DNA of 37,090 bases from Chloroflexota bacterium. Its GTDB lineage: Bacteria > Chloroflexota > Anaerolineae > JAAEKA01. Of this stretch, positions 2,232 through 11,454 are shown piece after piece; within the stretch, counting starts at the first letter, position 1, and each line of letters begins with the position of its first letter. The notes beneath the pieces were generated by a model. It was given only the letters and a program-made list of their open reading frames with translations. It was not told the DNA's origin and made no database searches. A program made the translations under genes and the position numbers. The DNA lies in assembly GCA_029558955.1 (NCBI GenBank), contig JAKQCW010000044.1, positions 1 through 37,090 of the forward strand. Reading direction: 5' to 3'.

Positions 2232-3491
2232 TCACGGAACCTGAAACTCAAACGCCACCTCGCCCAACACAGTCTCGCCATCCTTGGCGACGACAGTCAC
2301 GGTCCAGGGCCCGGCCATGCTGAAGTTGACGGCGCCCAGGTAGCGGCCATCGCCCTGAGCCACGGGGTTCTCGTTGCCGGGCGAGCCGTGGTCCATGGTC
2401 GGCATCCAGGGGGTGATCTCCAGCGTCAGGTCGTCCAGTGTGGGCCAGTCGAACATGCCGCGCTTCTGCATGGCGTAGATTTCGAAGGGCTGGCGGCCCA
2501 CCATCGGCTGGGTCGGCTGCACCACCGAGAGGAAGATCTTCATCTCATCTGGCCCCATGAAAGAGCCGTGCAGCTTGGATGGTCCCACCTCGACCGGCAC
2601 CAGCGCGGTGTTGCTCACGCTGTGCATGGTGTCGGTGAAGGCCACCGCCACCTCCCAACTGCCCAGGTCGGGCCCGCCGGGCATGGAGAAGATCAGGGCG
2701 CCCTCGAACATGCCGGGGCCGGCCTCTGTGGGCTGCACCACGCCAGAGCCGTGATGCCCGCCATCCATCATGTTCATGCGCGGGGCCATGGTCACCTGGG
2801 CCCCATCCACAGGCTGGCCGTCGGGGCCGGTCAGATGCACCCAGACCGGGTTGTAGCCGGCGTGCAGCGCATCGGCCTTGCTGATCACATGCACGTGGTA
2901 GCCATCAGCCTCGCCCTGGAACTCGCGGCCCTGCGGCGCGGCCTCAGTGCTCGATTGGGCCGCTTCCTCGGCAGCGTGGCCGTGGTCGCCCGAAGGCATC
3001 ATGGCCGCGCCGGCTTCGGTGATCAGCGCGCCGGCCTTGTGCCGTTCGACCAGGCCATTCCAGCCGAAGACCTCGCCGCTCAGCTCGGCAGCCAGTTGCT
3101 GGGCCGCGGCCTCGTCAGCAAAGGCCGCCGTGCCCTGGGCCATGGGGGTCTGCAGCATGTCGCTGAAGACATAGAAGGCCTTGCCGGCATCCAGCCACTC
3201 CTTGCTGTCGTAGTCATGCACCCACCAGGCGGCCACGGTCTGCTCTGGATGCTTGTCGGCGTGGATCAGCATGTCGCCGATGTCGTCGAACAGAACGCTC
3301 TCGTAGCGGCCGGGGCTCACCTCGTAGGTGTAGGCGGCGGCGAAGCGTGGGTCGCTGATGATCATCTTGCATTCAGCGCAGACATCCTCGCCGAAACGGA
3401 TTTCGGGCGGCGCGATGGTGGTCTGGCCTTGGGCGCAGCCGGCGGCCAGCAGCGCCAATGTCAGCAGCAGAAGAAGGAGACGCGTTTTCAT
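2232..3491 (-). CDS. nosL: NosL-like copper lipoprotein fused to two FixH/YtkA-like domains
   Basis: The product is 419 residues. The ATG at 3491 is preferred over the ATG at 3497, because the AAGGA at 3499-3503 lies only 1 nt from the latter but about 7 nt from the former. A lipoprotein signal has lipobox LAAGC (C19). Residues about 35-150 form a NosL domain with CAECKM (C38, C41, M43), the Cu(I)-binding motif of the NosL chaperone that supplies copper to NosZ. A His/Met-rich linker (about 165-215) leads to two beta-sandwich segments (about 195-300 and 310-419) resembling FixH/YtkA-like domains. The second and third parts contain clusters such as MDGGHHG and MPTMDHG that could bind copper. 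Standalone NosL proteins are about 150-200 residues, so the fusion is unusual. It is the last gene of the nos run. Confidence 0.8.
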   Translation of the reverse strand: MKTRLLLLLLTLALLAAGCAQGQTTIAPPEIRFGEDVCAECKMIISDPRFAAAYTYEVSPGRYESVLFDDIGDMLIHADKHPEQTVAAWWVHDYDSKEWLDAGKAFYVFSDMLQTPMAQGTAAFADEAAAQQLAAELSGEVFGWNGLVERHKAGALITEAGAAMMPSGDHGHAAEEAAQSSTEAAPQGREFQGEADGYHVHVISKADALHAGYNPVWVHLTGPDGQPVDGAQVTMAPRMNMMDGGHHGSGVVQPTEAGPGMFEGALIFSMPGGPDLGSWEVAVAFTDTMHSVSNTALVPVEVGPSKLHGSFMGPDEMKIFLSVVQPTQPMVGRQPFEIYAMQKRGMFDWPTLDDLTLEITPWMPTMDHGSPGNENPVAQGDGRYLGAVNFSMAGPWTVTVVAKDGETVLGEVAFEFQVP

Positions 3492-3574
3492 GAGCATGTC
3501 CTTTGCTAGTCAGGCTCGAGCGGGCGTGGTCGGACCCTACCGGGGTGCTACGCAAAGGCCGGCCCAAGCATGAG

Positions 3575-4009: not shown

Positions 4010-4843
4010 TTACCAATCGCCGCGCGTTGCCAGCCGCAGATAGGCCAACAACGCCGGTATGACGATCCAGAGGGCCAACACGGCCAAGAAGATGCCCAGC
4101 AGCGCCGCGCCGTAGCGCTGCACGGCGTAGATGCCGGCCGGCCCCAGAATGTCCAACGTGGCGCGGATGTCCAGGATGGCGGCCATCTTGAACACCTGCA
4201 ATGGATTGGTCAGCGACATGATGAAGAGGTTGGCGATGGGCACACGCAAAGCCATGGAGGTGCCCATCATGCCCAGGTCGCCCAGGAAGACGAAGATCAG
4301 CCATAGAAAAAGGCCAATGCCCACGGCCACGCTGGCGCGCCGGGTGAGGGAAGAGACCAAAAAGCCCACGCTGAGCATGGCCAGGCTGAGCAAGAAGGCC
4401 AGCCAGGTCAACTGCAAGTACTGGCCAGGGTCGGTGGCGCCCGCGCCGCCGATGGCCATCACCAGCCCGGAGATGCCAAAGCCCAACGCCAGCGCGGCCA
4501 GCAGGCTAAGCGCCAGGCCGAGGTACTTGCCCAGGAAGATCTCGTAGCGATGCACGGGCTGGGCCAGCAGATAGGCCAGGGTGCCGCGTTCCCACTCGCC
4601 GGCCAGGCTCTGCGCGCCGACGGTCAACGCCATCAGCGGCACGATCAGCAGCACCAGGTTGATCAGGCTGGCGGCGGTGCGGCCAAAGCCGGCGAAGCCG
4701 ACCATGCCCGCGCCGGCCAGCGCCAGGTAGGAGAAGGCCAGCGCCAGCACGGCAAAGGCTGCGGCGTAGAGCAGGAACCAACGGTTGCGCAGCGCGTCGC
4801 GCAGCTCTTTTTGGGTGAGGATCCAGACGGTGGTTAGGCTCAT
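4010..4843 (-). CDS. nosY: NosY, ABC transporter permease of the nos maturation system
   Basis: The 277-residue protein starts MSLTTVWILTQKELRDALRNRW. This amphipathic start, followed by six membrane helices, is typical of NosY/ABC-2 permeases. The cytoplasmic loop carrying EWERGTLAYLLAQPVHR is the conserved ABC-2 coupling segment. NosY works with the ATPase NosF and the periplasmic protein NosD, probably exporting a sulfur species needed for the CuZ centre of NosZ. The ATG at 4843 has only a weak ribosome site, but upstream in-frame sequence is repeat DNA and not plausible coding. The gene is separated from nosF by 450 bp of repeats. Confidence 0.9.
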   Translation of the reverse strand: MSLTTVWILTQKELRDALRNRWFLLYAAAFAVLALAFSYLALAGAGMVGFAGFGRTAASLINLVLLIVPLMALTVGAQSLAGEWERGTLAYLLAQPVHRYEIFLGKYLGLALSLLAALALGFGISGLVMAIGGAGATDPGQYLQLTWLAFLLSLAMLSVGFLVSSLTRRASVAVGIGLFLWLIFVFLGDLGMMGTSMALRVPIANLFIMSLTNPLQVFKMAAILDIRATLDILGPAGIYAVQRYGAALLGIFLAVLALWIVIPALLAYLRLATRGDW

Positions 4844-4860
4844 GAGGGTTGCGTCTCTGA

Positions 4861-5009
4861 TTCGTAACTCGGAATGGCGGGCGGGTCTGGCAGGATGAGA
4901 TGGTTTGGCGTGACTCGTAATGCGTAACCCGGAATGGTGGGCGGGTCTGGCAGGATGAGATGGTCTGGCGTGACTCGTAATGCGTAATGCGTAATGCGTA
5001 ACCCGGAAT
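4861..5009. repeat. 60-bp direct duplication ending in a heptamer array (left arm)
   Basis: A unit starting GGAATGG at 4871 is repeated exactly 60 bp later at 4931 with very few changes (GGCGGGTCTGGCAGGATGAG core). Each copy ends in CGTAATG-type heptamers. The final block (about 4975-5003) has four such units and the cap CCCGGAATG. Its sequence is the reverse complement of the block at 5236-5270, so the two arms could pair across the intervening hairpin element. Confidence 0.85.
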
Positions 5010-5040
5010 GTGTTGGCGCGGGGCCTTTCTTGATGGCAGG

Positions 5041-5163
5041 CAACAATTCCAAATGTGGCGCGGAGTCGAGGCTTTAGCCGGGTCTGGACGATGTGAGTTG
5101 AGCGTGCCAACCCGCCTGAAGGCTCGACTCCGGTTTGGCAGCCTTCATGTTTAGAATCGCCGG
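5041..5163. repeat. Long imperfect hairpin element, copy B
   Basis: This is a direct-orientation copy of the element at 2-122, with the same order of outer arm, inner arm, spacer and arms. It has more mismatches between its arms than copy A, so it appears older or decayed. It lies in the loop between two inverted heptamer arrays in the nosY-nosF gap. Confidence 0.75.
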
Positions 5164-5235
5164 GTGGCAAGGTAGCGAGTTGACGCGAGTACAGTACGAA
5201 TGTCACGTGGCCAGGAAATGCCGCCCATACCGGCG

Positions 5236-5293: not shown

Positions 5294-6148
5294 TCACTGC
5301 TGCATCTCAAAATCCATCACATCGATGGCCGCATCGCGCAGGACGTGGATGGGCGCGGCCTTTTGGCCGGGCAGGACATCCACAACGACGCCGTGGCCGT
5401 TGCGCGCGACGGTGAAACCGCCCTGCGTCAGGATGTTCACTGCCGGCGCGATGGCGTCTTCGGTCAGGTAGAGCCTGAGCTGGCTGCGCAGGCCCAGGCG
5501 CTGCGGCAGCTCGGCGGCCGGGCAGATGGACACCGCGCGGCCCTGCGCCATGACCAACACCTGGTCAGCCAGGGCGCTGATCTCCTCGATGCGGTGCGAG
5601 GTGAAGAGGATGGTCTTGCCGGCCGAACGCACGCCGGCCAGCAGCTCCAGGAACTGATCGCGGCCGGCCGCGTCCAGGTTGGAGGTGGGCTCGTCCAACA
5701 CCAGCACGGGGGGATCGGCCAACAGGGCCAGCCCCAGGGCCAGGCGCTGCTTCATGCCGCCGGAAAGCGCGCCCACCGGCTTGTGGCCATGGTCCTCCAG
5801 ACCTACCTGCGCCAGCACCTCGCGCGCGCGGCTGGCCGGCGCCCGCTTGAGACGGGCGTAGAACTGAGCCGTGTCCAGCGCGCTCATGTCGCTGTAGAAG
5901 GCCAGTTCCTGCGGCACGTAGCCCAGCCGCCGTCGCACGGCCTTGCCCTGCTTGTGCGCGTCCAGGCCTTCGACCTGGATGCTGCCTTGGTAGCGCAGCA
6001 GGCCAAGGAGACACTTGATGGCCGTGGTCTTGCCGGCGCCGTTGGGGCCCCAGAGGGCCAGCGCCCGCTGTGGCTCCACGGTGAAGCTCAGGTCGTCCAC
6101 CGCGGTGAACTTGCCGAAGCGTTTGGTGAGGTGGGAGAATTGGATCAT
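5294..6148 (-). CDS. nosF: NosF, ABC ATPase of the nos maturation system
   Basis: The 284-residue ATPase has Walker A GPNGAGKTT at 34-42, a Q-loop (VPQE), signature LSGGMKQRL, Walker B VLVLDEP with the D-loop SNLD, and the H-loop TSHR. It would energise NosY on the cytoplasmic side of the membrane for CuZ assembly in NosZ. It is about 20-25 residues shorter than many NosF proteins but complete in motifs. The start ATG at 6148 has no clear Shine-Dalgarno. It lies between nosD and nosY, the standard nosDFY order, but here each junction is expanded by repeats. Confidence 0.92.
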   Translation of the reverse strand: MIQFSHLTKRFGKFTAVDDLSFTVEPQRALALWGPNGAGKTTAIKCLLGLLRYQGSIQVEGLDAHKQGKAVRRRLGYVPQELAFYSDMSALDTAQFYARLKRAPASRAREVLAQVGLEDHGHKPVGALSGGMKQRLALGLALLADPPVLVLDEPTSNLDAAGRDQFLELLAGVRSAGKTILFTSHRIEEISALADQVLVMAQGRAVSICPAAELPQRLGLRSQLRLYLTEDAIAPAVNILTQGGFTVARNGHGVVVDVLPGQKAAPIHVLRDAAIDVMDFEMQQ

Positions 6149-6185: not shown

Positions 6186-6392
6186 GATAATGCGTGATGC
6201 GTGATGCGTAACTCGTAACTCGTAACCCGGAGGTGTGTGTGGATGGGGGTTTGTGGCGTGATGCGTGATGCGTAATGCGTAATGCGTAACCCGGAGTGTG
6301 TGTGGATGGTGGATGGCGGTGCGTTGCGCACGGAGTGCAGGCTGCGCTTGGACGCCAATGCCGCCTGCGCACATTCCGGGTTACGGGTTACG
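6186..6392. repeat. Paired heptamer arrays in the nosD-nosF gap
   Basis: Two left-arm blocks contain CGTGATG/CGTAATG/CGTAACT units. They end CCCGGAGGTGTGTGTGGATGG (cap at 6226) and CCCGGAGTGTGTGTGGATGG (cap at 6290), giving a 64-bp direct repeat. The right arm at 6373-6392 is ATTCCGGGTTACGGGTTACG. The first TTA of the right arm, read on the minus strand, is the TAA stop codon of nosD (6381-6383). Confidence 0.8.
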
Positions 6393-7757
6393 TCGGCTTG
6401 CTCCCGGCCTCCTGATGCCGAGGAACAACACCACGCCGGCCAGCGCCAACATGCCCAGCGCCGCGGCCAGATTGATCAGCAACGGCGGCTCGGGCACGCC
6501 AGGCACCGCAGCCGGCTCGGGCGGCGTCATCAACGGGAACTCGTCGGCCATCTTGGCGCGCGGCTGGAAAAGGGGAAAGGCGCGCGCGGCCAGGTCCAGG
6601 GCATCGGTGGCCGGGCTGAGCTGGAAGAGCCGCAGATTTGGATATTTCTCCATCAGGTTCTCGTACAGGCTGGTGGAGCGATAGGGCAGGTCGCCTACCA
6701 GATCGCCGTCGGCGTCGAAGCCGGCGTAGTCGCTCCAGTAGTTGCCCCAGCCGGCGCGCGCCCAGTCGTTGCCGCGCAGCTCGCCGCCGCCGGCGATGGC
6801 CACCTGCTCACGGTTTTCCTGAAAGATGTTGTTGGTGTAGACGTTGCGGGACACCGAGGGCAGCATCTCGATGCCGATTTCGTTGTAGGCCGTTAGGTTG
6901 TCCTCGAAGATCACGAACGCATCGCCCTCGCGCGGCGAGTTGTCCACGTAAATGCCGACGCGATTGTTGACGATCCGGTTGCCCACGGCATGCACGTCGT
7001 CCACATCCTTGAGCGCCACGCCGTAGCCGCTGGGGCCGTAGTTGTCCAGCAGCAAGTTGTTGGTCATGGTCAGGCCGCGGCTGTACATCAGATAGGCGCC
7101 CACCGAATTGCTGCGCAGGATGTTCTCCTCCACAGTCTGGTTGTCGCTGAACATGAAGTGCAGACCGTAGCGCCCATTTTCGATCACATTGCCGCGCAGG
7201 ACTGCATCGCTGGCGAACCACATCACCACATCGCGCGTGTCGTAGACATAGTTGCCCTCGACCAGCGCGCCGGGGCTTTGCCAGATGCGGACGCCGTCGC
7301 CGCGCCGGCTGATGGGCAGATCCATGCCGGTGACCCGGTTGCTGCGAAGCACGCTGTCGGGGGCTTCTTTGAGGTAGATGCCGAAGAGCACGTCCTCCAG
7401 TTGGTTGTTCTCGATCAGCAGGCGCGGCGCCTTGCCGGTGATGCCGGCGTGTTCCTGGTCCAGCGACTTGCCGCTGTGGCGGATGGTCAGGCCGCGCAGG
7501 ATGACATCAGGCGCGGTGATGGTCACCACGTCGCCCAGGCCGCCGCCGTCGATCACCGCGCCCTCCTGGCCCTCCAGCGTCAGGCCGGGAACATCGACCA
7601 CCACCGGGCCGGCATAGACCCCTGGCGGGACGACGATGGTATCCCCCGGCTGAGCTGCAGCCAGCGCGGCTGCCAGGTCGAAGGGCGCGCTCTGCGCGGC
7701 CGTCACGCTGGCGAGCAGCGTCAGAAGCAAAATGGCGAGGAGGAGGGGACGGGGCAT
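6381..7757 (-). CDS. nosD: NosD, periplasmic right-handed beta-helix maturation protein
   Basis: The 458-residue protein has a Sec signal peptide (1-20, cleavage after VTAA). Successive parallel beta-helix turns follow (about 45-330), with many N-x-I and G-x-G-V repeats typical of NosD/CASH domains. The NosD-specific segment GNDWARAGWGNYWSDYAGFD is around 329-348, and a C-terminal membrane anchor lies at about 425-448 followed by RRPGASRR. NosD partners NosF and NosY in building the CuZ site. It lies directly after the nosB-like gene. The TAA stop falls inside a heptamer repeat unit, so the extreme C-terminus may have been reshaped by the repeat. Confidence 0.93.
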   Translation of the reverse strand: MPRPLLLAILLLTLLASVTAAQSAPFDLAAALAAAQPGDTIVVPPGVYAGPVVVDVPGLTLEGQEGAVIDGGGLGDVVTITAPDVILRGLTIRHSGKSLDQEHAGITGKAPRLLIENNQLEDVLFGIYLKEAPDSVLRSNRVTGMDLPISRRGDGVRIWQSPGALVEGNYVYDTRDVVMWFASDAVLRGNVIENGRYGLHFMFSDNQTVEENILRSNSVGAYLMYSRGLTMTNNLLLDNYGPSGYGVALKDVDDVHAVGNRIVNNRVGIYVDNSPREGDAFVIFEDNLTAYNEIGIEMLPSVSRNVYTNNIFQENREQVAIAGGGELRGNDWARAGWGNYWSDYAGFDADGDLVGDLPYRSTSLYENLMEKYPNLRLFQLSPATDALDLAARAFPLFQPRAKMADEFPLMTPPEPAAVPGVPEPPLLINLAAALGMLALAGVVLFLGIRRPGASRRNP

Positions 7758-7825: not shown

Positions 7826-8485
7826 TCAATCCTTTGCCTGCGCCGCATCTACCAACGGCTTGTAGGCGCGGCGGTGGAAGTAAAGGCCAATCAGGATCAG
7901 CAGACTGGCGAGCATGGCCAGCCAGAGGCCAACACCCGGCGTCGCCACGGTCTTGAACTGGGCAATCAGGCCCTCGCCCAACACCTTGGGCACGAAGGGC
8001 TTGACGCTGCTGCTCAGCGCGGCCGTGGGGTCCAGATTGGTGCCGAAATTGGCCAGCCAGAACTGCAAATCCAACAGGAAGATCACGGGGAAGAGCAGCG
8101 CCGGCAGGGCCAGCAGCGCCGCCCAGCGGTTATGCACGAAGACGGCGGCCAACACCAGCAGCACCAGCACCACCACGCCGATCACCGAGATCGACTTTTC
8201 GAAGGACGCTGCCTCAGCCAACGGCCGCATGCCGATGTAGTGGTTCAGCCCGTCCAGCTCGCTGACATCACCCTCCAGGTTGTTGAGGTACGCATGAACG
8301 GTCAGCCCCTTGGGGTACTGCGGCGCGAAGAGCGTCATGTGCCAGTAGGGTTGAAAGATCGACACCAGCAACAACAGGGCCGCCAACAGAAAGAGCGCGG
8401 TTGGCAAGAGATAGCGGCCTCGGTTGGCGCGCATCTCGTCGGCCGGCACGCGCGGCCCCAGAATCTTCTCAACGTTCTCAGTCAT
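7826..8485 (-). CDS. nosB: NosB-like polytopic membrane protein
   Basis: The 219-residue protein has four predicted membrane helices: about 26-46, 97-117, 120-140 and 183-203. An extracytoplasmic loop between the first two contains GLNHYIGMRPLAE. A NHYIGM-type loop and the position immediately downstream of nosZ are features I associate with NosB proteins of clade II nos clusters, whose function is not established. The symbol rests on topology and position and should be read as tentative. AAGGA lies about 10 nt before the ATG at 8485. A 410-bp repeat-filled gap separates it from nosZ. Confidence 0.6.
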   Translation of the reverse strand: MTENVEKILGPRVPADEMRANRGRYLLPTALFLLAALLLLVSIFQPYWHMTLFAPQYPKGLTVHAYLNNLEGDVSELDGLNHYIGMRPLAEAASFEKSISVIGVVVLVLLVLAAVFVHNRWAALLALPALLFPVIFLLDLQFWLANFGTNLDPTAALSSSVKPFVPKVLGEGLIAQFKTVATPGVGLWLAMLASLLILIGLYFHRRAYKPLVDAAQAKD

Positions 8486-8606: not shown

Positions 8607-8798
8607 GTGACTGTTCAGCCGGCGGGTGCGAACACGTTGATTGAGTAGGCCGCCGCATCGAAATCAACGTGTTCGCACCCGCCGGCGGGCCAAACGTTGG
8701 TTTCGACACTTGCGCCTGCGCTACGCTTCGGCGCAAGCGCAGGTGTACGCCTCAGAAGGCTACTCAACCAACGTTTGGCCCGCCGGCTGAGCAGTTAC
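8607..8798. repeat. Bipartite palindromic element, copy 1 (192 bp with insert)
   Basis: The ends are near-perfect terminal inverted repeats (GTGACTGTTCAGCCGGCGGG and its complement ending CAGTTAC). Inside are two hairpins side by side. One is built on GGTGCGAACACGTTGAT. The other is built on GGCCAAACGTTGGTT. The same element lies inverted at 36938-37090 (153 bp). Removing the 39 bp at 8707-8745 makes this copy exactly 153 bp. There is no ORF; it looks like a non-autonomous palindromic element. Confidence 0.88.
8707..8745. repeat. 39-bp hairpin nested in the loop of the palindromic element
   Basis: The insert starts CACTTGCGCCTGCG and ends CGCAAGCGCAGGTG, so it is itself an imperfect palindrome. 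It is absent from the second copy of the host element, where TTTCGA joins TACGCCTCAG directly. Confidence 0.8.
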
Positions 8799-8808
8799 AA
8801 TTGGCGAA

Positions 8809-8900
8809 TGGTAAGCGGTAATCTGTAACCCGGAGCAGGCACATACCCAGCGCCCACTCCGGGTTACGAGTTACGCATTACGCATTACGTGAAGATTACG
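8809..8900. repeat. Paired heptamer arrays at the 3' end of nosZ
   Basis: The left arm (about 8809-8835) has GGTAAGC/GGTAATC/TGTAACC units and the cap CCGGAG. The right arm (about 8857-8889) has CTCCGGGTTACGAG followed by CATTACG units. A further GATTACG unit at 8894-8900 contains the nosZ stop codon (8896-8898). The spacer is only about 20 bp, so this pair could fold into a compact hairpin. Confidence 0.8.
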
Positions 8901-10872
8901 GCGCCACCAGCATGTAGCCCATCATCTCCAGGTGCAGGGCCGAGCAGAACTCGGTGCAGTAGTAGGCATAGGTGCCGCTGTTGTTGGCGTCGAACTCGAA
9001 GCTGACCGTCGCGCTGGGCTCGATGCTCAGGCTGACGTTCTGGCCGCCCAGTTGGAAGCCATGCACCGCGTCGTGGGCGGTTTCGATGTTGGTGATGTGC
9101 CAGGTGACATGGTCGCCCTGCTTGAGCTCGATGCGGTCGGGCGTCAGGTGCGAACGGATCGAGGTGCTGTAGATGGTCACCTGATTGCCGTCGCGCTCGA
9201 TGCGCTCTTCGCCGGCCTTGGTGGCGAACTCAGACACCTTCCACTCGATGGGATCCCAGCCGATCTCAGGATAGACGTTGATGGGGTTGAGCTTGTCGGC
9301 CTTGACGATCTGAGCGTAGTGCGGTTCGCCGACGCCCATGGCCATGTCGTAGATCACCTGCGGGCTGCCGCTGATGTCCATCAGTTGCAGGTTTTGCGGC
9401 AGCAGCGGACCGACGGGTAGGAAGCGATCCAGCGCCCATTTGTTCAGCGCCACCAGGTACTTGCCGTCAGGGCTGACCGTGTCGCCCTCGGCTGCGGCGA
9501 TGTGGCCAACGTTGTACTGCACCGGCGTCTTCTCCAGCAGGGTATAGGCAGCAGGATCATCGCCGCCCAGCTTCCACTTGGCCAGCGCGCTGTCCAGGAA
9601 GAGGCTGGTGTAAGCATTGCCCTGGCCATCGAACTGGGTGTGGAGCGGTCCCAGGCCCAACTCTACCTGCGCCAGCATCACCGAGTCGAAGTCCAGCACC
9701 GGAACGCCGAAGTCGTCGGTGGACCACTTCTTGTCGGCGATGGCCTGCTCGATCTTGTTCATGGCGTAGACCGTGACGTGCGGGTCCAGCTTGCCGGCCA
9801 CCACGATGTACTTGCCGTCCGGGGTGACGTCGACGCCGTGGGGGCTCTTCGGCTCCGGCGCCAGGTAGAGGATCCCTTCCTCCACAGCCGTGGGGATGCG
9901 GATCACGCGCATGCCGTTGTGCTCCTCGTACTTGCCGGCCTCGATCACCTCAGCAGCCTTCTTCCAGTTGAAGATGTGCAGGTAGTCCATGTCGCGCTGG
10001 CTGACGCCCGACTCGAACTGGGGATTGCCCTGCATGTTGCCGCCGGTGAAAAGCTCGGTGTTGAAGGAGTTGCAGAAGCCCCAGCCCTCGCTGACCAGCT
10101 TGCCTGCATCGCACAGGTCCTGCCAGTAGGGGGGCACTTCGATGCTGAAGGACTCCTCAGGAATGATGCGTCCCTTCTCGCGGTCGAATTTCCACAGGGT
10201 GATGACCGCGCGGTACTCTTCCTTGTAATTCTCGATGGGCGCATATTCCCAGCCCAAGGGCACGGCGTACTGGGTGCCCTGGATGACGTACTCGGTGTTG
10301 GGGGTGACAAAGGTCGAGCCGTGGTTGCTGATGATGTTGGGGTCTTTGACGATCTGCTTGGTGCGGAAGTCGCGCAGATCGATCACCGCCACGCGGGCGC
10401 TGGCTTTGTCGTTGATGAAGACCCACTGGCCGTCATAGTCGCCAGCGGTCTCGCTCAACGCCGGGTGGTGCGAATCGCCCATGCGGATCTTGACGTCATC
10501 GACGTTGCCGCCATCCAGCACTGCCTCTGAACCCAGGTCGCCGATGCCGTAGCCCTGCCAGGCTTCCGGCGTGAAGACGGCGATGTTCTTCAGAATGCGC
10601 ATGGAGGGGATGCCGATCACGATCAGGTTGCCGCTGTGGCCGCCTGAGGTGAACATGTAGTAGTCGTCCCACTTGCCGCTGGGCACGTAGGTCTTCAGCG
10701 CGGCGTTGATGTCAGCCGGCGACAGACCACGCTCCTGGGCAATGGTCATGGCGTCAGCCGGCAGGCCGCCTTCGGCGACCACCGGCGTGGGTGTCTCCTT
10801 GCTCTTGCTGCAGCCGGCCAACGCCGATACGAGCAGGAGCAGGATCATGGTCAAGAGGATCAGTCGTTTCAT
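8896..10872 (-). CDS. nosZ: NosZ, nitrous oxide reductase (clade II type)
   Basis: This 658-residue enzyme reduces N2O to N2 outside the cytoplasmic membrane. It has a Sec-type lipoprotein signal with lipobox ALAGC (C21) and no twin-arginine motif. Sec export marks clade II; the lipobox is a further feature. The N-terminal seven-bladed propeller includes histidine segments such as GDSHHP (132-137), expected for the CuZ site. The C-terminal cupredoxin holds the CuA site, CTEFCSALHLEM (C639, C643, H647, M650), with an upstream His in HDAVHGF. AGGAG precedes the ATG at 10872. The gene follows a small ferredoxin gene and probably shares its promoter at 11283-11345. The length and motifs are complete. 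Confidence 0.97.
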   Translation of the reverse strand: MKRLILLTMILLLLVSALAGCSKSKETPTPVVAEGGLPADAMTIAQERGLSPADINAALKTYVPSGKWDDYYMFTSGGHSGNLIVIGIPSMRILKNIAVFTPEAWQGYGIGDLGSEAVLDGGNVDDVKIRMGDSHHPALSETAGDYDGQWVFINDKASARVAVIDLRDFRTKQIVKDPNIISNHGSTFVTPNTEYVIQGTQYAVPLGWEYAPIENYKEEYRAVITLWKFDREKGRIIPEESFSIEVPPYWQDLCDAGKLVSEGWGFCNSFNTELFTGGNMQGNPQFESGVSQRDMDYLHIFNWKKAAEVIEAGKYEEHNGMRVIRIPTAVEEGILYLAPEPKSPHGVDVTPDGKYIVVAGKLDPHVTVYAMNKIEQAIADKKWSTDDFGVPVLDFDSVMLAQVELGLGPLHTQFDGQGNAYTSLFLDSALAKWKLGGDDPAAYTLLEKTPVQYNVGHIAAAEGDTVSPDGKYLVALNKWALDRFLPVGPLLPQNLQLMDISGSPQVIYDMAMGVGEPHYAQIVKADKLNPINVYPEIGWDPIEWKVSEFATKAGEERIERDGNQVTIYSTSIRSHLTPDRIELKQGDHVTWHITNIETAHDAVHGFQLGGQNVSLSIEPSATVSFEFDANNSGTYAYYCTEFCSALHLEMMGYMLVAP

Positions 10873-11217: not shown

Positions 11218-11282
11218 GGGGTGTCTCGAAATCTGCCGCTGACAGATCCTGACCGATCGAAGAAGCACGTCTAAACCGCCTA

Positions 11283-11345
11283 ATCATAGCCGACTTCCCC
11301 ATGACACGCTGCGACAAAAGTCACAATCTTGCGACTGTTGACACA
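11283..11345 (-). promoter_or_regulatory. nos operon promoter with two CRP/FNR-type sites
   Basis: On the minus strand a TATGAT -10 box lies at 11288-11283, predicting a start near 11276. No good -35 box is present. TGTGACTTTTGTCGCA (11325-11310) matches TGTGA-N6-TCACA at 9 of 10 positions and is centred at -41.5. A second copy, TGTGTCAACAGTCGCA (11345-11330), matches 8 of 10 and is centred at -61.5, exactly 20 bp further upstream. These are the classic class II and class I activator positions. Control by a Crp/Fnr-family regulator, possibly an NO- or oxygen-responsive one, is inferred. Confidence 0.6.
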
Positions 11346-11393
11346 AGGATGCCACCCTTGCACATGGACGGCGGCCGGCCCCATGCGGCCAGT

Positions 11394-11422: not shown

Positions 11423-11454
11423 GACGCCATCGCGTGTCACGGAGATCAAGCCCG

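Follow-up and report, generated by a model that had tools for sequence, protein, structure and literature searches.

Gene content and promoter of the ferredoxin–nosZ locus

The window, i.e. the whole stretch of 37,090 bases analysed in this study, corresponds to an entire contig (C27) of the Chloroflexota genome G000, whose assembly comprises 4.59 Mb in 350 contigs and is 94% complete. A cluster of nos genes is encoded on the minus strand (Table 1), and the ferredoxin specified by its first gene appears FrdX-like by context. The 219-aa product of the gene that follows nosZ (P7826) had no match among the Pfam and NCBIfam profiles. Between these two genes, inverted repeats free of mismatches, 25 and 22 nt long, are located at 8618-8686 and 8681-8787; they may belong to a small mobile repeat or fold into an attenuating hairpin.

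Table 1. Features of the nos locus and gene of the candidate regulator
Feature	Position	Strand	Remarks
Distal operator TTGTGTCAACAGTCGCAA	11329..11346	(-)	centre at -61.5 to predicted start
Proximal operator TTGTGACTTTTGTCGCAG	11309..11326	(-)	centre at -41.5 to predicted start
-10 hexamer TATGAT	11283..11288	(-)	first base 30 nt after operator centre
Predicted transcription start	11276	(-)	inferred from -10 hexamer
2x[4Fe-4S] ferredoxin, 71 aa, first gene	ATG 11217 to stop 11002	(-)	Fer4 8.7e-16
nosZ, Sec-dependent (clade II) nitrous oxide reductase	8896..10872	(-)	TIGR04246 845.9 bits, above cut-off
219-aa gene (P7826) after nosZ	7826..8485	(-)	conserved after nosZ in sister loci
nosD	6381..7757	(-)	TIGR04247 425.5 bits
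ABC transporter ATPase, NosF position	5294..6148	(-)	profile match
ABC permease, NosY position	4010..5206	(-)	weak subfamily matches
NosL domain fused to YtkA-like domain	2232..3497	(-)	domain matches
Crp/Fnr gene C202	G000:C202:3-638	(-)	incomplete at contig end

A first-pass annotation of this DNA had described two CRP/FNR-type sites spaced by 20 bp ahead of the nos operon. Both sites are present, and the matches then given to TGTGA-N6-TCACA were reproduced. Specifically, as written in the window, the proximal site TGCGACAAAAGTCACA (11310-11325) agrees with this motif at 9/10 positions and the distal site TGCGACTGTTGACACA (11330-11345) at 8/10, with centres at 11317.5 and 11337.5; read on the minus strand, in the sense of nosZ, the two operators are TTGTGACTTTTGTCGCAG and TTGTGTCAACAGTCGCAA. 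Their placement before the nos operon also stands, but the first gene of the predicted transcript is the ferredoxin gene, with nosZ as the second.

The distances of -41.5 and -61.5 depend on the start being set at 11276, and relative to this predicted position they are borne out. In agreement with the reported absence of a -35 box, the hexamer located 17 bp upstream of TATGAT is CAGCGT, which shares only 1/6 positions with TTGACA. The class II position of the proximal site, combined with the missing -35 box, supports the activator geometry and the activator dependence proposed earlier. All together, the region 11283-11346 is well supported, on sequence grounds, as a predicted class II activator-dependent promoter of the ferredoxin–nosZ operon, including both operator and promoter.

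The abundance of the motif in the window is by itself uninformative, since six matches to TGTGA-N6-TCACA at 8/10 or better were observed against 9.3 expected; a pair of sites 18-22 bp apart arose in 2/300 shuffles. As the count within the window is at the chance level, the case for real sites rests on phylogenetic comparison.

Conservation of the operator and of its spacing

We compared 63 nosZ upstream regions, mostly from Anaerolineae, and found an operator of the form TGTGAC-N4-GTC(A/G)CA (A-type) in 31 of them; this and the other comparative counts include related genomes and are inflated by shared ancestry. The closest named relatives are Caldilineales/Caldilineaceae MAGs; in one labelled Anaerolinea sp., NosZ is 98% identical. 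In G003, a genome of the same genus whose NosZ is 98% identical to that of G000, the proximal 18-mer is identical, and it is similar in Caldilineaceae. The corresponding region of G004, which belongs to another genus of the same family, shows GTGAGACTTTTGTCGCTG followed by TATGGT with the spacing unchanged.

The -10 element lies at equal spacing from the operator in G003, G004, G143, G099, G118 and others. Among the 36 best sites, the -10 score was highest 30 nt away from the operator centre (z = 5.6 across positions), which corresponds to the class II position -41.5. In the light of this fixed spacing and of an operator conserved across genera and throughout the class, a chance similarity of the motif is hardly credible, even though the six matches against 9.3 expected in the window would suit it. 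A function of the sites mainly for the divergent plus-strand gene starting at 11434 or 11455, about 90-110 bp downstream of them, is extremely improbable as well. This reading was rejected because G003 and G004 share the site, the -10 and the ferredoxin but not the sequence on the divergent side, and the phased -10 across lineages falls on the nosZ side.

The first-pass annotation had named a lack of conservation of both half-sites in close relatives as a refutation. Both halves of the proximal operator are identical in G003, which thus speaks for this site, while of the distal one G003 keeps the promoter-distal half alone. In addition, the distal site is absent from most sister Caldilineaceae, and the two-site arrangement thus appears lineage-specific. 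A second operator copy at -18 to -22 was nevertheless found in 7/31 A-type loci, belonging to at least three lineages, compared with 1/186 control windows, so that the tandem arrangement is recurrent but not general. Sequence comparison accordingly describes the second site as a lineage-specific yet recurrent add-on.

A variant arrangement was observed in one family (G104, G141, G123, G015 and G050; loci L012-L015 and L017), where TTATGAC-N4-GTCACAT and TATGAC-N4-ATCATA precede nosZ; in most cases position 30 offers no good -10.

Candidate regulators and helix–operator correspondence

A search of the genome for Crp/Fnr regulators, suggested by the first-pass annotation, identified three such transcription factors in G000, namely C267, C49 and C202. 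The C202 gene lies away from the nos genes; G001 and G004 have complete orthologs of it. Its product carries the helix TVREMVGR, with R180, E181 and R185 in the alignment to E. coli CRP, a combination unique among the three G000 regulators. Rodionov et al. 2005 (PMC1274295) relate helix residues R180 and E181 to operator bases G3 and A6.

In six loci of sister Caldilineaceae (L119-L123 and L132), a C202 ortholog with 54-63% identity is found directly upstream of ferredoxin-nosZ-P7826-nosD. The site lies between crp and the ferredoxin gene in most of these loci, while in L119 it maps just after the ferredoxin gene; in L120 it was located by inspection. The order crp-site-ferredoxin is also seen in G010, G012, G047, G007, G145 and others. 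Homologs of the ferredoxin precede nosZ in the sister loci and follow crp in G019, G054, G118 and G099. Based on the R180/E181/R185 helix and on the ortholog beside ferredoxin-nosZ in sister loci, we strongly infer that the C202-encoded protein is the best candidate regulator of ferredoxin-nosZ.

The sites themselves would at first sight suit an ordinary global regulator, either cAMP-CRP or the O2-sensing FNR, as their consensus equals that of E. coli CRP, with the 9/10 and 8/10 agreement reported above. We consider this very unlikely. At the positions of the cAMP contacts G71/E72/R82/S83 of CRP, C202 has N/N/N/P, and cAMP-CRP was rejected. FNR was rejected on account of the single cysteine of C202, which thus lacks the FNR cysteine set for [4Fe-4S], and of the promoter, as no TTGAT-N4-ATCAA site with up to 2 mismatches occurs at the nosZ promoter; the latter result also spoke against DNR. 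Furthermore, what relatives encode downstream of the sites is related to nitrosative stress and N-oxides. The earlier preference for a CRP-like over an FNR-like specificity is hence supported, whereas the NnrR-like specificity proposed alongside it did not hold. Specifically, no TTGcg-N4-cgCAA occurs in the 800 bp that precede the nosZ of G000, so that NnrR was rejected, and the TTGCG-N4-CGCAA box is used by other Anaerolineae together with a different regulator.

In the window at large, TTGAT-N4-ATCAA sites with at most 2 mismatches number 15, compared with 4.2 in shuffles, i.e. more than a threefold excess; most of them apparently lie inside genes.

We then related operator type to the recognition helix of the Crp protein whose gene neighbours nosZ. 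Where A-operator loci have an R-E or L-Y Crp neighbour, this is of the R-E..R type in 21/21 cases. The L-Y..R neighbours (C49 type) occur at 10 loci, all devoid of the A operator, and 4/10 of these have TTGCG-N4-CGCAA. The association of helix and operator types gave a Fisher p of 7e-7, with loci counted without regard to relatedness, and operator type appears to predict the neighbouring helix as a readable code.

Outside the R-E/L-Y contrast, P-D..R neighbours accompany the A-type sites of L117 and G099. This lends some weight to a real operator bound by another Crp/Fnr protein, either of the P-D..R type (C467 in G003, or that of L117) or C267 or C49, beside which and C202 no full Crp/Fnr regulator was found in G000. 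In particular, the G003 assembly (92% complete) yielded no C202 ortholog, and C467 is found there instead. No P-D..R protein occurs among the G000 regulators, however, and C49-type proteins accompany non-A operators. Moreover, C267 has V180, with which the code of Rodionov et al. does not predict G3, and it is the C202 ortholog that is syntenic with ferredoxin-nosZ and the site in sister species. We therefore regard another binder as unlikely, and C202 is retained as the candidate in what follows.

Two tandem Crp/Fnr genes are present beside nosZ in several Anaerolineae (L080, L081, L092, L093, L134, L136-L141, L143 and L144), with GTVREVVTR-like and GTAREVVYR-like helices. As for C49 (L096), proteins resembling CBS-domain proteins and hemerythrins were recognised by eye in its vicinity, which suggests that G000 has a second regulator related to N-oxides.

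Regulon content, proposed mechanism and comparison with known systems

The composite pattern TGTGAC-N4-GTCRCA-N21-TANNNT, which joins operator and -10, was searched in 150 relatives and in G000, giving 113 occurrences among the matches listed against 29 in the reversed control. In G000 this composite is the only informative pattern, unlike the bare motif with 2 mismatches, whose 80 matches against 144 in the reversed control are mostly noise. By hand count, about two dozen composite matches fall within ~600 bp of a C202 homolog, typically just 3' of the regulator gene and ahead of a small ferredoxin gene.

The proteins encoded downstream of the composite in relatives, assigned by Pfam on their first 130 residues, include ferredoxin, Hcp (Prismane; in G093), flavodiiron-type protein, hemerythrin, NapC/NirT (NrfH-like) cytochrome, protoglobin and NosZ. 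The sole other composite match in G000, on C211, lies ahead of cupin and NnrS-like membrane genes, and homologs of the C211-type membrane genes are found in L121 between crp and the ferredoxin gene, after another copy of the motif. Behind a composite, locus L101 (242-2446, minus strand) carries a cupin gene and membrane genes with weak similarity to NnrS (E 0.005) and COX1, and is probably a second operon belonging to this regulon.

Within the 94% complete G000 assembly, we found no Prismane (hcp) match, no NirS, and no NirK above the cut-off; NO would therefore come largely from outside the cell. By analogy alone, NO would be the most likely signal, as the regulon content resembles that of HcpR and P. 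gingivalis HcpR senses NO via heme (PMC12750200).

In conclusion, we consider it likely that ferredoxin-nosZ is transcribed from an HcpR-like, NO-linked class II promoter, with C202 as the most likely activator. A Crp/Fnr dimer would bind TGTGAC-N4-GTC(A/G)CA centred at -41.5 and substitute for the missing -35 box, and a second dimer at -61.5 could reinforce activation. This dimer would most likely be the C202 protein, HcpR-like, with a CRP-type recognition helix and no cAMP pocket, which may respond to NO or nitrosative stress, as its regulon content suggests. According to this model, nosZ has been recruited into a nitrosative-stress regulon, and the nosZ of G000 is probably under HcpR-type, NO-linked activation.

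Chloroflexota constitute a large uncultured share of the clade II nosZ carriers devoid of denitrification genes, and the present data bear on how such carriers decide to make an N2O-consuming enzyme. The comparison yields a candidate regulator with its operator, the geometry of the promoter and a regulon of few genes, each directly testable in vitro. In the open-access literature searched, we found no description of this operator or this regulator for a Chloroflexota nosZ.

As regards known systems, E. coli class II CRP-dependent promoters share with this one the centre at -41.5, the lack of a -35 box and TGTGA-N6-TCACA, but the candidate regulator here has no cAMP pocket. DNR of Pseudomonas and beta-proteobacteria is, like the regulator proposed here, an NO-responsive Crp/Fnr activator of nos genes; its box TTGATnnnnATCAA is absent at the nosZ promoter of G000. 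For Nitrosophilus labii (PMC11539149), Nss-type control has been proposed for a clade II nosZ with Crp/Fnr-like sites, which differ from ours in sequence (TTGA-N6-TCAA) and in position, as they overlap the predicted start and are not centred at -41.5.

The alpha-proteobacterial NnrR regulon resembles the one proposed here in that a Crp/Fnr regulator controls nos and nnrS genes. Its box ctTTGcgnnnncgCAAag was not found here, but other Anaerolineae, with an L-Y..R Crp, have it before nosZ. Specifically, boxes of the TTGCGCTAGCGCAA type are located 150-245 bp before nosZ in G111, G095, G037, G132, G069, G061, G027, G096 and G135, at loci without the TGTGAC operator; the neighbours seen there are C49-family Crp proteins with the L-Y..R helix. 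Two pairs can thus be defined, the HcpR-type (TGTGAC-N4-GTCACA with an adjacent R-E..R regulator) and the NnrR-like (TTGCG-N4-CGCAA with an L-Y..R regulator). The odds seem about even that in Anaerolineae an HcpR-type nitrosative-stress regulon includes clade II nosZ, and that lineages have swapped the former pair as a whole for the NnrR-like one; in G000, where neither NirS nor NirK was detected, NO from other organisms would then turn on N2O reduction.

Finally, the Desulfovibrio HcpR regulon differs in its phylum and in that G000 combines ferredoxin and nosZ in one operon and has no hcp match; the HcpR targets named in the passages of PMC1274295 consulted do not include nosZ. That source describes the operator as wTGTGAnnnnnnTCACAw, with the regulator gene next to one for a ferredoxin, and lists hcp, the ferredoxin gene frdX, and hemerythrin- and cytochrome-like genes as targets, and D. 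desulfuricans HcpR1 binds TGTGA-N6-TCACA (PMC5701242). In our loci, the operator reads ATGTGACTTGGGTCACAT in relatives and, in the window, agrees with TTGTGA-N6-TCACAA at 10/12 positions; C202 carries R180, E181 and R185; and in relatives the regulator gene is linked to a FrdX-like ferredoxin gene behind the site. Operator, helix and gene context, together with the putative ferredoxin, hemerythrin and nrf-like targets of nitrosative stress in relatives, thus resemble the Desulfovibrio regulon, and point to C202 as an HcpR-like protein.
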